A stretch of 64,000 bases of DNA from Calothrix sp. FI2-JRJ7 (GTDB lineage Bacteria; Cyanobacteriota; Cyanobacteriia; Cyanobacteriales; Nostocaceae): positions 52,822 to 116,821 of the forward strand of contig JAHHGX010000073.1 in assembly GCA_019359675.1 (NCBI GenBank). Reading direction: 5' to 3'. Positions 18,840-23,128 of the stretch are shown piece after piece. The notes beneath the pieces were generated by a model. The model saw only the letters and a list, made by a program, of their open reading frames with translations, ran no database searches and was not told the origin of the DNA. How positions within the stretch are numbered: the first letter of the stretch is position 1; each line of letters begins with the position of its first letter. The translations under genes and the position numbers were made by a program.

Positions 18840-19230
18840 AATTGCACAAAACTCTGAGAAAATATTACGTTTTTCGTCGAACGTATATCTTCACTTTCAT
18901 TGAGTTATGCAATTTGATTTAATATTTATGAAGTCAGGCAGATTTGGGATAGTAAGCTTTCCCTGTATCCGCTTTAGTGACAAGGTTAAAAGCCTGAGCT
19001 TGCATTGAGGAGATTCTTCATGATATCTTAGAAACTTGTTATATTTATTATATCACTTAAAAAATATTTTTGCCTGATTTCGCTGCCAAAATCAGGTTAA
19101 CTTTAATAAAATTTTTTACAATTTATACTATTGCTTTACAAACCATTTTGTAATCTTATAGAGCTATCTTGTAGAGCTATCTTGTGGAGCGGGCTTTCTC
19201 TTGCCCCGCCCCTACCAGGAGTAACTTTAG
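18840..19230. other. Non-coding interval with 13-base tandem repeat and hairpin
   Basis: TAGAGCTATCTTG occurs twice in tandem (19159-19171, 19172-19184). It is followed by GGAGCGGGC...GCCCCGCCCC, an imperfect hairpin that could terminate the minus-strand peptide genes. No gene seen. Confidence 0.55.
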
Positions 19231-19476
19231 TTATTTAGCAGTAATAGCTTGACCTGCGTTGCTGAAGATATCTTGCAAGCTAGTTACAGAACCTGTGTAA
19301 CTACCACCGGGGCCTGCAAAGGTTTGTTGAGCAACCCCTAAGTTCTTTTGCGAAAAGCTATTGGAAGCGTCTGATGTAAACCCACCGATGTCACCTAAGC
19401 TAATAGACAAACCACCTGCAACAGTATCGAGTTCATCGATAGAAAGTTCAACTGCGTTATTAATTTCGTTCTGCAT
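19231..19476 (-). CDS. Double-glycine-leader peptide precursor, copy 2
   Basis: 81 residues. The leader MQNEINNAVELSIDELDTVAGG has the ELS-x-DEL-x-x-VAGG form of double-glycine secretion/RiPP leaders. The core (~59 residues) starts LSISLGDIGGF, is rich in Gly, Ser, Ala and Asn, and contains no cysteine. SQKNLGVAQQTFAGPGGSYT is shared with the neighbouring precursor at 19567-19818. It resembles cyanobacterial CTB-type bacteriocin precursors. Cys-free cores exclude lanthionine formation. No maturase is next to it; an MFS exporter is divergently placed 630 bases away. Confidence 0.82.
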   Translation of the reverse strand: MQNEINNAVELSIDELDTVAGGLSISLGDIGGFTSDASNSFSQKNLGVAQQTFAGPGGSYTGSVTSLQDIFSNAGQAITAK

Positions 19477-19566
19477 GATATTTACTCCTGAAATTGTGTA
19501 ATTATGTATTTGGAAGGATGAAGATTTTGTATAATTGGGTAAGCGGCGCCTACCCTACGGTAATGT

Positions 19567-19818
19567 TTAGAAACCGATAGCAATAGCTTGACCAGCACCA
19601 GATTTGATATCTTGCAACTGAATACCAGAAGCAGTGTAGCTACCACCAGGACCTGCGAAGGTTTGTTGAGCAACCCCTAAGTTCTTTTGCGAAAAGGTGT
19701 TGGAAGCATCCGATGCAAACCCACCAATATCACCTAAGCTAATAACTAGACCACCTGCAAGAGTATCAAGCTCATCGAAAGAAAGTTCAACTGCGTTGGT
19801 GTTAATTTCGTTATTCAT
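19567..19818 (-). CDS. Double-glycine-leader peptide precursor, copy 1
   Basis: 83 residues, paralog of 19231-19476 in tandem. Leader ELSFDELDTLAGG, then a Cys-free core beginning LVISLGDIGGF. Leader and middle of the core are nearly identical to the other copy, while the last ~20 residues differ (ASGIQLQDIKSGAGQAIAIGF versus GSVTSLQDIFSNAGQAITAK). The pattern suggests duplication with a conserved processing region and a diversifying tail. The 90 bases between the copies contain a GGGTA...TACCC hairpin, which could attenuate expression of copy 2. Confidence 0.82.
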   Translation of the reverse strand: MNNEINTNAVELSFDELDTLAGGLVISLGDIGGFASDASNTFSQKNLGVAQQTFAGPGGSYTASGIQLQDIKSGAGQAIAIGF

Positions 19819-20105
19819 TAGACATCTCCGTAAAAGTATAATTGTGGTTGAGATATCGCAGAAGTCATACCCGTTTATTATTTCGGTTGCCTTGCTGCGT
19901 TTGTTTTCGCTTCATGCGTACATACTATGAATTTTGCTACTTCCTCTACATCGGACAAACGTTGGGAATAAAGCTTATATTTTATCCATCGAAAAGAGTC
20001 ATCCTTTAGTTTGAGACAGAAGTAAGTAAACAAACAGAAGCATTACTGAGTTAGATAGGGCATACTAAAAGGCAGGGATTATACCACGTTTGGAGGCATC
20101 TGCAA

Positions 20106-21389
20106 TTGAAGGGCTGGCTAAAAAATAATATTTATTTACATCTACCTGCATTCCAATCGCGTAACTTTAGACTCTTCTTTAGTGGACAAACGCTGTCGCT
20201 GTCAGGCACGTTTATGACGCAGGTGACGATTTCTTGGTTAATTTATACCCAGACGGGTTCTGCTTGGTTGCTTGGTTTAAACGGGTTTCTGCAATTTTTA
20301 CCGACATTAGTTCTGGCGCCGTTTTCAGGGGTTTTGAGTGACCGTTGGAGTAAGCGCGATTTATTGATAGTGGTGCAAGTGCTAGGAACAGTCGCTTCCC
20401 TAGCTTTAACGACACTTTCCTTTTTAGGATTGGCAAATTTTTGGGTGCTGATAATTTTCAGTATTTGGGGAGGATTCCTAAAAGGTCTAGATATGCCTGT
20501 GAGGTATGCGATTGTAATTGAAACAGTCGATAACCGTGACCATTTAAACAACGCTATCGCCCTTTATTCTGCCATGCTCAGTAGCTCTATGTTAATTGGG
20601 CCTGCAATTGGAGGTTTATTGCTTGCCAAGCTTGGACCAAACTATTGCTTTGTGTACGATAGTTTAAGTTACGTTGTGGCATTATTAACGCTTATTTCAA
20701 TGAGATTACGACCAACTCCAAAACTAGACACATCTGGAAGCAACACTTGGCAAAAATTACAAGAAGGATTTAGTTATATATATAATGTCGTGCCAATTCG
20801 TGCCATCTTGTTACTGTTGGCATTAAATGGTTTATTCGGTAGTGCCCATATGGCGTTACTTCCCATCTTTGCATCTGACATCCTTAAAGGTGGTGGGGAT
20901 ACAATGGGCTTTTTGAGTTCAGCAGGTGCTATAGGTTCAGTTATCGGCTGTCTTTATCTTAGTTTGCGTCGGCGAGTGTTGGGTTTAGAAAAGTTGATGG
21001 CATTATGTCCTGCTATAAGTGGAATTGGCTTAATTGCTTTTGCAATATCTAGACAAGTTTGGCTTTCGTTACTAATTCTAGTTGTAATTGGTGGCGCCGG
21101 AATGCTTATAGTGTCTTGCGGTAACACCATAGTCCAAACCTTAGTTGAAGACGATAAGCGAGGTAGAGTGATGAGTCTTTACTCTCTGTCTATAATTGGC
21201 ACGTTACCTTTGAGTAGCTTGCTCGCTGGTAGTTTAGCACAGAATATTGGCGCCACGAATACGGTAATTGGCAGTGGTATTATTTGCCTTTTAGAATCAA
21301 TATGGTTTGTTCGACAGTTACCACTTTTGACAAGCTGGATAAAACAAAAGACCAAGCAAACAGACGAATTATCTAAAGCTGCAACATAA
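20106..21389 (+). CDS. MFS exporter, EntS/enterobactin-exporter-like
   Basis: 427 residues with 12 predicted helices and the MFS loop motif GVLSDRWSKRDLL (~75-87). Start at TTG 20106, with GGAGG 9 bases upstream; no suitable ATG is near the N-terminus. N-terminal PAFQSRNFRLFFSGQTLSLSGTFM is typical of the MFS_3 group that includes enterobactin exporter EntS and macrolide exporters. Substrate unknown. It is transcribed away from the two double-glycine peptide genes, with a shared 287-base intergenic region; a link to peptide export is possible but double-glycine peptides normally use peptidase-containing ABC exporters. Confidence 0.88.
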   Translation: MKGWLKNNIYLHLPAFQSRNFRLFFSGQTLSLSGTFMTQVTISWLIYTQTGSAWLLGLNGFLQFLPTLVLAPFSGVLSDRWSKRDLLIVVQVLGTVASLALTTLSFLGLANFWVLIIFSIWGGFLKGLDMPVRYAIVIETVDNRDHLNNAIALYSAMLSSSMLIGPAIGGLLLAKLGPNYCFVYDSLSYVVALLTLISMRLRPTPKLDTSGSNTWQKLQEGFSYIYNVVPIRAILLLLALNGLFGSAHMALLPIFASDILKGGGDTMGFLSSAGAIGSVIGCLYLSLRRRVLGLEKLMALCPAISGIGLIAFAISRQVWLSLLILVVIGGAGMLIVSCGNTIVQTLVEDDKRGRVMSLYSLSIIGTLPLSSLLAGSLAQNIGATNTVIGSGIICLLESIWFVRQLPLLTSWIKQKTKQTDELSKAAT

Positions 21390-21463: not shown

Positions 21464-21754
21464 CTAGATTGTAATATCGGGTAAATATCTTGCACCATGA
21501 ACTACACGAACTATTTCAACACCTCCACTAATCTCCCGGTAAAGTATTAAATATTGTCCAGTAGGAAAATAACGCAATCCAGATGCAATATCAGGACGAA
21601 CTTGACCCATTGCTGGGTTGTCAGCCAACATTTGACATTTGGTATCAATTCGCTCAATTAACTTATCTGCGGCTTCAGGATTGTCAGTCGCTACATACAT
21701 CCATATTTCAATTAAATCCTCTTCAGCTTTGGCAGTGCGGATTAAGTATCCCAC
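21464..21754 (-). CDS. parE: ParE-type toxin
   Basis: 96 residues of the RelE/ParE fold: AEEDLIEIWMYVATDNPEAADKLIERI, GLRYFPTGQYLILYRE, and VVHGARYLPDI near the end. ParE members inhibit gyrase. It is encoded 18 bases after parD in the antitoxin-first order. It looks intact. Confidence 0.93.
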   Translation of the reverse strand: MGYLIRTAKAEEDLIEIWMYVATDNPEAADKLIERIDTKCQMLADNPAMGQVRPDIASGLRYFPTGQYLILYREISGGVEIVRVVHGARYLPDITI

Positions 21755-21772
21755 GATAACTACATATCCTTC

Positions 21773-22042
21773 TTACGAAATTTGATCTAAGCGTCTACGA
21801 GCTTCTTTTTTAATAGCTTCAACATCTGTATATTTACCCGCACCGCTCTCAATGCCTTCAAACCACAGGCGCCGTACTTCGTCTATATTATGTAGTTGCA
21901 ACTGACGTTTTTGCTTCCAGTCGCGTAAAGCTTCGCGGATGACCTCGCTGCTGCTGACATATTCACCTGAAGAGACTGCATCATGAACCAATGCAGCCAT
22001 TTCTGGAGTCAAAGCAACGCTGATTTTTTCAACATTTGGCAT
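21773..22042 (-). CDS. parD: ParD-type antitoxin
   Basis: 89 residues. The N-terminal ribbon-helix-helix (EKISVALTPEMAALVHDAVSSGEYVSSSEVIREALRDW) is the CC2985-type ParD fold. The C-terminal tail (VRRLWFEGIESG...EEARRRLD-like) wraps the toxin. It should repress its own operon together with ParE. Confidence 0.93.
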   Translation of the reverse strand: MPNVEKISVALTPEMAALVHDAVSSGEYVSSSEVIREALRDWKQKRQLQLHNIDEVRRLWFEGIESGAGKYTDVEAIKKEARRRLDQIS

Positions 22043-22429: not shown

Positions 22430-23128
22430 ATGATTGACCTTTACTACTGGACTACGCCCAACGGACACAAAATAACTATATTTTTAGAAGAAGTTGGCTT
22501 ACCTTACAACATCATTCCTGTCAATATTGGTAAAGGGGAGCAGTTTAAACCAGAATTTCTAGAAATTGCTCCGAACAATCGTATACCAGCAATTGTTGAC
22601 CGCGAACCTGCTGATGGTGGTGAACCCATTTCAATTTTCGAGTCTGGTGCAATATTAGAGTACCTAGCAGATAAAACCGGGAAATTAATTCCAGCAAATG
22701 TTCGAGGTCGTGCGGAAGTGCTGCAATGGCTATTTTGGCAAATGGGAGGACTCGGGCCAATGGCAGGGCAAAACCATCACTTCAATATATATGCTCCTGA
22801 AAAAATTCCTTACGCAATTAATCGCTATGTAAACGAAACAGGACGTTTATATGCTGTTATGGATAAACGACTAAGTGACCGGGAATTCCTAGCAGGTGAT
22901 TATTCAATTGCTGATATTGCCAGCTATCCCTGGATTGTACCTTACGAACGACAAGGACAGAAACTAGAAGATTATCCTAACCTGAAACGCTGGTTTGAAG
23001 CAATAAAAAGGCGCCCAGCAACAATTCGAGCTTATGAAAAAGCCGAAGCATTTAATAATGAACAAATAGCTCCAGAACAAGCACGCGATTTATTATTTAA
23101 TCAATCCGCTACTACTGTAAAACGATAA
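22430..23128 (+). CDS. Glutathione transferase, YfcG/Ure2-like
   Basis: 232 residues: thioredoxin-like N-domain (MIDLYYWTTPNGHKITIFLEEVGLPY, glutathione-binding FESGAILEYLA at ~67-77) and an all-helical C-domain with the N-capping box SIADIASYPW. The TTPNGHK start fits the YfcG/YghU (nu-class) group that acts as glutathione-dependent disulfide reductase. Stand-alone gene; a likely ribosome site AGGGGAAA precedes the ATG. Confidence 0.92.
   Translation: MIDLYYWTTPNGHKITIFLEEVGLPYNIIPVNIGKGEQFKPEFLEIAPNNRIPAIVDREPADGGEPISIFESGAILEYLADKTGKLIPANVRGRAEVLQWLFWQMGGLGPMAGQNHHFNIYAPEKIPYAINRYVNETGRLYAVMDKRLSDREFLAGDYSIADIASYPWIVPYERQGQKLEDYPNLKRWFEAIKRRPATIRAYEKAEAFNNEQIAPEQARDLLFNQSATTVKR

Follow-up and report, generated by a model that had tools for sequence, protein, structure and literature searches.

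How do two small peptides with double-glycine leaders leave the cell when the genes around them encode no dedicated exporter? The question is raised by a locus of the cyanobacterium Calothrix sp. FI2-JRJ7 that lies in a 64-kb stretch of DNA (the window), the last 64 kb of a 116.8-kb contig (C73) in a genome of 8.66 Mb, 91 contigs and a completeness given as 99.92%. An original prediction, made from the letters alone, had described a tandem pair of cysteine-free precursors, had offered a divergent transporter of the major facilitator superfamily (MFS) as their exporter, and had seen in the locus a candidate new system. The pair belongs to the CTB family and shares an upstream block with sister copies. 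We consider it likely, with a good deal of room for doubt, that it has been orphaned, the NHLP-type exporter that probably served it having been deleted from the genome. What we claim as new is the block and the loss of the exporter, within the limits of the literature searches made; a search on such systems together with Calothrix found no paper. The two genes and their leaders are as follows.

19567..19818, minus strand: first precursor gene, 83 amino acids, predicted mature part of 60 amino acids after the double glycine, NF038167 75.7 bits
19231..19476, minus strand: second precursor gene, 81 amino acids, predicted mature part of 59 amino acids, NF038167 78.8 bits
19750..19818, minus strand: predicted double-glycine leader of the first precursor (residues 1-23), from sequence and alignment
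19411..19476, minus strand: predicted double-glycine leader of the second precursor (residues 1-22), from sequence and alignment

The tandem double-glycine pair is where it was described, and its two members are 81% identical, with the leader ELSxDELDT(V/L)AGG in both and not a single cysteine in either. Both belong to a named family, so that the claim of a new system falls: they match the NCBIfam model NF038167, "CTB family bacteriocin" (cyan_ocin_like), scoring 78.8 and 75.7 bits where 32 is the cut-off, with E-values of 2.6e-22 and 2.3e-21, over profile positions 1-71 and 1-72 of 72. A protein search gave 111 clusters at E <= 0.001 (among 115 candidates, the window's own two included), the named ones coming from Calothrix, Dulcicalothrix, Rivularia, Nostoc, Tolypothrix, Scytonema and their kin; because of these clusters and the E-values the pair cannot be chance open reading frames. 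Residues L12, L17, G22 and G23 are invariant in all 38 aligned relatives, giving the leader pattern ELSxxELxxxxGG. The conserved handle with a variable tail that had been proposed holds for the window pair, whose identical stretch extends through SQKNLGVAQQTFAGPGGSYT and whose differences fall mostly in the last ~20 residues, but it does not carry over to 80 relatives, in which the tail is only moderately variable (mean column entropy 1.36) and the most conserved mature part is residues 41-63 with a QQTFAG core (0.73). The core cysteines and nearby maturase of a lanthipeptide or sactipeptide were not found: no maturase-like gene was recognised by eye among the neighbours, most of which were not scanned against the library, and none of the 14 Peptidase_C39 matches of the genome lies on C73, so that the view that neither a maturase nor a C39 gene adjoins the peptides stands. 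Among CTB peptides the window pair is set apart by its place in a QQTFAG subgroup with a common upstream block, and by having neither an exporter in cis nor an intact NHLP-type one in trans.

The pair is part of a dispersed set. The window genome has nine matches to the CTB family, seven of them over the cut-off, and a strict profile of the QQTFAG subgroup finds seven copies: five intact, of which two are the window pair and the others lie on contigs C22, C43 and C65, and two damaged, one by an in-frame stop (C33) and one by the loss of its leader (C42). Each of six congeners (genomes G001 to G006) has 3 to 12 strict-profile matches, some of them likewise decayed, and at the strict threshold the subgroup is present in 10 of 60 relatives. 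One CTB gene of G004 (L163, G004:C2:150500-155000) has its first codons parted from the remainder by an insert of ~2 kb that looks, by eye, like a group II intron or a similar element. Upstream of CTB arrays at L053, L060, L064, L067 and L069, on the opposite strand, stand genes for a MinD/ParA-like ATPase and a Tll0287/HAMP sensor-like protein (the two families were scanned for L053 only); relatives of the ATPase occur also at L073, L075 and L076, and both proteins are possible regulators or partners.

What ties the dispersed copies together is a conserved block of DNA upstream of them.

19907..19976, minus strand: 70-nt conserved upstream block, candidate promoter, weight matrix 60.5 bits, ungapped alignment

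The block consists of CCGATGT, 20 nt, TAGTAT and then GTACGCATGAA, with two conserved parts, CAATCCAAACTTTNTTCCGATGT and (C)TANTATGTACACATGAA, at a fixed distance. An alignment of upstream DNA places it before the first gene of CTB arrays across genera; since here too it precedes only the first gene and not the second, the window pair is probably transcribed as one unit. The weight matrix was trained on 22 blocks, leaving out those of the window and of its own genome and including the ortholog L030; two training blocks (L060 and L069) were anchored out of register and kept, which blurs the model slightly. Over loci L001-L161, exporter and MFS loci included, the matrix gave 70 matches above 12 bits, 67 of them of at least 40 bits, all 70 of which mark a CTB gene, or what is left of a decayed or split one, with none before exporter or MFS genes, while 2.1 million shuffled positions held no match above 12 bits. 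With 11 of the 67 dropped as repeat loci, 56 blocks of at least 40 bits remain; in 49 a CTB start follows 41-106 nt downstream, and in seven (L021, L045, L071, L072, L074, L077 and L155) no start was found by pattern. When seven genomes were scanned with a pattern of the block, 39 sites came within 0-2 mismatches of it; 32 were matched by hand to CTB genes, the other seven being one split CTB gene, one assembly gap, three blocks with no gene, one block before another gene and one false match; at up to three mismatches there were 82 matches against 25 for a control in which the pattern was read backwards. One gene-less block belongs to the window genome (C65:37377, in L166, G000:C65:36400-39400), and the gene beside it also neighbours the CTB genes of L054, L056, L057 and L062.

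Two other identities for the block were rejected. A small coding region does not fit, since each of the three frames is interrupted by stops (in 20, 30 and 46 of 50 blocks) and codon positions leave no signal, and neither does a known RNA family, Rfam having given no match in 19000-20300. We infer a shared promoter, with TANTAT as its -10 box, serving a co-regulated set; this is a candidate, and a standard sigma-70 scan, which did not detect the block (4 sites against 3.1 expected), weighs against the assignment. A literature search on promoter motifs of cyanobacterial double-glycine peptides found no paper.

Outside the genus the same subgroup is found beside an exporter. In Leptolyngbya sp. 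Prado105, a metagenome-assembled genome, at least two CTB genes and a second double-glycine precursor are followed by four exporter genes in a row (L069): a cyclic-nucleotide-binding protein (TIGR03896, 295 bits, cut-off 161), an HlyD protein (TIGR03794, 380 against 156), a C39 peptidase fused to an ATP-binding cassette transporter (C39-ABC; TIGR03796, 1144 against 853) and a second ABC protein, which reaches 706.3 bits against the TIGR03797 cut-off of 709.4 in a gene cut by the end of the stretch. Parts of the cluster occur also at L034, L053, L060, L064, L067 and L158. We take the paper on this NHLP-type export system to be that of Haft et al. 2010. The layout (TIGR03794, TIGR03796, TIGR03797) is that given in the part of PMC2887384 available to us, and cluster group V of Wang et al. 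2011 in cyanobacteria, in the accessible part of PMC3140520, has the same layout as L069; L069 is thus such a cluster with the subgroup at its head, and other genera have it in part. The difference is that in this genus the exporter genes and most of the precursors lie apart, and that in the window genome the exporter is deleted. Among 57 named subgroup loci, taken with flanks of at most 8 kb and in several cases sharing a genome, NHLP exporter genes are present in six, an MFS gene in five, all of this genus, and neither in 46; orthologous peptides always standing next to another exporter, which had been named as fatal to the MFS proposal, is thus the case at a few loci and not at most. In 20 loci of the wider family, chosen in other genera by strong matches, a C39 domain is present in 18, five of the NHLP type, accompanied by genes for HlyD and the cyclic-nucleotide protein, and 13 of another type, and absent in two. 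Because only one of those five (L158, in G028) lies in a genome that passes the strict subgroup threshold, NHLP exporters serve other CTB family members too.

All six congeners encode all four exporter parts. Five of them have the HlyD protein at 82-84% identity and the cyclic-nucleotide protein at 79-80%, G001 being the source of both queries; the C39-ABC protein is 75-77% identical to that of L069 in all six, and a second ABC protein over its cut-off is present in all six. The window genome differs. The cyclic-nucleotide protein has no match there at E <= 1e-10, the second ABC protein none over the cut-off, and the C39-ABC protein none over that of TIGR03796 (the best is 576.9 against 853.3, among the best 15 of 139 candidates scored); of HlyD there is only a C-terminal piece of 163 amino acids on C64, 43% identical to the query. 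The four parts of an NHLP cluster are thus neither beside the precursors in the window nor intact anywhere in the genome. The deletions themselves are clean. On C87 the second precursor is joined to the gene that follows it, at a point where ~2.88 kb more are present in G004 and G002; in G004 this extra stretch holds the end of the second precursor (its last codons) and the genes for the cyclic-nucleotide protein and HlyD. On C71, 1,689 bp inside the C39-ABC gene are missing relative to G004, G006 and G002, leaving a remnant of 173 amino acids made of its first and last parts. The gap at this scar was also considered as the place from which the second ABC gene was lost, and this was rejected; because the open reading frames in the gap (L112) are unrelated genes, the absence of the second ABC gene rests on the genome-wide search only. 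Both scars lie tens of kilobases from contig ends, and in at least two congeners the sequence on either side of them is collinear, at ~88-94% identity. A long array with a repeat period of ~73 nt, which may be a CRISPR array (clustered regularly interspaced short palindromic repeats), lies upstream of the deleted exporter operon (L117 7200-9700, G000:C87), and is found also in G004, G005 and G002. Across the 60 genomes, a protein over the TIGR03796 cut-off occurs in nine of the ten with the subgroup, the exception being the window genome (Fisher p = 0.001).

Several observations weigh against an exporter that served this subgroup and was lost here. The HlyD piece on C64 passes the TIGR03794 cut-off (167 against 156.2 bits), covering only positions 264-420 of 421. 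The C87 junction is unreadable against G001 and G003, where the match runs to only ~280 bp, and differs on one side in G005. The co-occurrence comes mostly from one genus, and with the genus collapsed, one congener standing for it and the window's own genome left out, it becomes 4 of 4 against 16 of 50 (p = 0.015); among 29 wider-family genomes, listed by E-value, 10 have no protein over the TIGR03796 cut-off. Other C39-ABC proteins remain in the window genome, and the genome is an assembly of 91 contigs. We nevertheless favour the deleted NHLP-type exporter. On this account the upstream block would be the promoter of a co-regulated, dispersed set of precursors, and one exporter, made of the cyclic-nucleotide-binding protein, HlyD, the C39-ABC protein and the second ABC protein, would have served many of them in trans. 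It likely cleaved and secreted the window peptides before its deletion, and in this strain they would now be either no longer exported or exported through a remaining C39-ABC transporter.

Precursors scattered away from a shared machinery have a parallel in the prochlorosins, where many precursors, some of them far from the machinery, are served by one promiscuous enzyme (PMC10783134, PMC3140520, in the parts available to us); those are Nif11-family lanthipeptides, and the window peptides have neither cysteine nor a known modification enzyme.

That the peptides are still secreted by a remaining C39-ABC exporter, such cross-use having made the NHLP exporter dispensable, is the first alternative, and we hold it to be possible though doubtful. 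The search for C39 genes elsewhere in the genome, which had been proposed, did find 14 Peptidase_C39 matches, several of them in open frames of ~1000 amino acids, but none on the contig of the peptides. In the 13 wider-family loci of non-NHLP type, the C39 domain beside the divergent CTB members is closest (37-42% identity) to the long type found in the window genome, a further sign that export may continue; the genomes of those 13 loci, however, have no subgroup match at the strict threshold, L147 having a weak subgroup-like one. Five of the seven subgroup copies are intact in frame and the window pair looks constrained: the ratio of nonsynonymous to synonymous substitution rates (dN/dS) against congeners is 0.16-0.54 for the first gene and 0.13-0.16 for the second, with 0.07-0.37 between congener pairs, so that relaxed selection on the pair is not evident in a test whose numbers are too small. 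The copy in G004 looks like a hybrid of both precursor genes. Decay is suggested, on the other hand, by the copy with the in-frame stop, the leaderless copy and the gene-less block, even if congeners also have decayed copies. To judge by its sequence the window pair shows no visible decay; this would be expected if the exporter was lost recently, and also if another C39 transporter still exports the peptides.

The spacer between the two genes holds a hairpin of its own.

19537..19555, minus strand: stem-loop between the precursor genes, 8-bp stem, z -1.77, within a 90-nt spacer

The stem is found also in the orthologous spacers of L031 and L033, and in those of L034 and L035 it is no better than in shuffles. 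It is possibly an RNA-processing or stability hairpin. A terminator scan found no site.

A second alternative takes the family name at its word and makes the peptides antimicrobial bacteriocins, which we think unlikely without dismissing it. The name of NF038167 speaks for it, as do exporter models called bacteriocin export and a CTB operon of Nodularia that is induced by phosphate starvation and discussed as allelopathic in the accessible part of PMC9846622. Two papers use the name; in the parts available to us both concern expression and genome comparison and contain no killing assay. Among 75 of 80 mature parts (five with no recognised motif were dropped; four of the 75 have cysteine), about half of the residues are S, T, N, Q or G, the median net charge is -1, and the charge is positive in two. 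Tandem copies in one array can be nearly identical in their cores (L053), and inspection of CTB loci by eye brought no immunity gene to light. Composition and near-identical tandem copies are closer to what a structural product made in bulk would show than to a killer peptide under diversification, so far as sequences can tell, and the role would more likely be structural, or in a matrix, than that of a cationic killer.

Structure prediction is compatible with such a role. AlphaFold with 80 sequences gives a leader helix and a long beta-hairpin, with strands 34-56 and 59-81 around a GPGG turn, and blocks within residues 41-70 reach a mean predicted local distance difference test score (pLDDT) of 85-92; against the fold stand the overall mean pLDDT of 70.3 and a predicted template modelling score of 0.32. 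With 38 sequences the topology is the same at lower confidence, and among solved structures no credible relative was found by sequence (best E 0.57). The mature peptide may be a beta-hairpin built around the GPGG turn, with its place of action outside the cell. The nearest analogy is with EbfG1-4 of Synechococcus elongatus, double-glycine proteins secreted with the C39-ABC protein PteB, three of which, EbfG1-3, form amyloid and probably have a part in the biofilm matrix (PMC4997328, PMC9981879, in the parts available to us). The likeness, an analogy drawn with no sequence comparison, is that of small double-glycine proteins and a core predicted to be beta-rich; the 2016 paper reports, in the part available, that mature EbfGs have no homology to proteins of other cyanobacteria (PMC4997328). 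The modelled long hairpin core suggests compatibility with EbfG-like matrix proteins. A wider picture, in which a scattered regulon of secreted beta-hairpin peptides, with the same 70-nt promoter for every array and one NHLP exporter for all, forms an extracellular amyloid-like matrix in Calothrix and its relatives, with the window strain as a natural knockout, is a speculation that we would put well on the improbable side.

Export of the peptides by the MFS protein, once another protease has cleaved them, is very unlikely. The genes concerned are these.

20106..21389, plus strand: MFS_3 transporter gene, TTG start, PF05977 198.6 bits, read as a neighbour outside the peptide system
22430..23128, plus strand: glutathione S-transferase (GST) gene; GST/TauD-type genes recur beside this MFS family

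The divergent gene with its TTG start is there as described, and its protein resembles the enterobactin exporter EntS, matching NF007792 at 134.1 bits over 400 residues; this is far below the cut-off of 324, and GST and TauD genes, not peptides, recur beside its relatives. At the orthologous locus G002, G004 and G006 have peptide and MFS genes divergent, as here; G003 (NIES-4105) has an intact MFS gene and no peptide, and G005 (PCC 7103) keeps both peptides with an MFS gene of which ~60 codons remain, next to a stretch of N in the record, so that the two are separable both ways. In G001 an MFS gene lies 1.8 kb from a CTB gene, in what seems, from a glycogen synthase-like neighbour judged by eye, to be a different locus. 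A survey of MFS neighbours took 25 of 57 matches (the best 26 minus G037), in stretches of 8-20 kb, and sought QQTFAG-type CTB genes only: none of the 17 loci outside the genus has such a gene nearby. Among 15 loci with MFS identity of at least 50%, a CTB gene is present in five, all of this genus, and a TauD or GST gene in ten; ten loci at 45-48% have neither in the stretch. The MFS relatives in G024 and G015 (67-78%) lack a CTB gene of this kind in their vicinity, G015 having no family match at all, and no upstream block was found before the MFS genes examined. The best counter-argument is repeated proximity inside the genus, an MFS gene lying within 2 kb of a CTB gene in four of six congeners (G001, G002, G004 and G006), with the remnant in G005. 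Because the MFS gene is separable from the peptides and has other neighbours elsewhere, we reject it as the exporter; from this comparison it is probably a neighbour.

That the exporter only seems missing through incomplete assembly is, the 91 contigs notwithstanding, the least probable of the alternatives, given scars well inside contigs with collinear flanks, the completeness stated above and four separately searched parts that are all missing.

The window holds other features as well. Two small adjacent genes on the minus strand (21464-21754 and 21773-22042) resemble, by eye, a ParE/ParD-type toxin-antitoxin pair. At the very end of the contig (63874-64000) lies a perfect 7-nt tandem repeat, AGTTAGG, in 18 copies, and the palindrome GGCGCC occurs 112 times in the 64 kb, 1.8 times the Markov expectation; presumably it may play the part of HIP1 in other cyanobacteria.

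Databases list CTB peptides as bacteriocins, but in the parts available to us neither of the two papers with that name shows a function for them. A strain that has lost the matching exporter, set against close relatives that keep it, is a ready comparison for the role of the peptides, be it killing, signalling or matrix, and the same comparison could show whether a double-glycine precursor can switch to another C39 exporter. The shared promoter block, if it is one, would be a handle by which to find every member of the set and its regulator.

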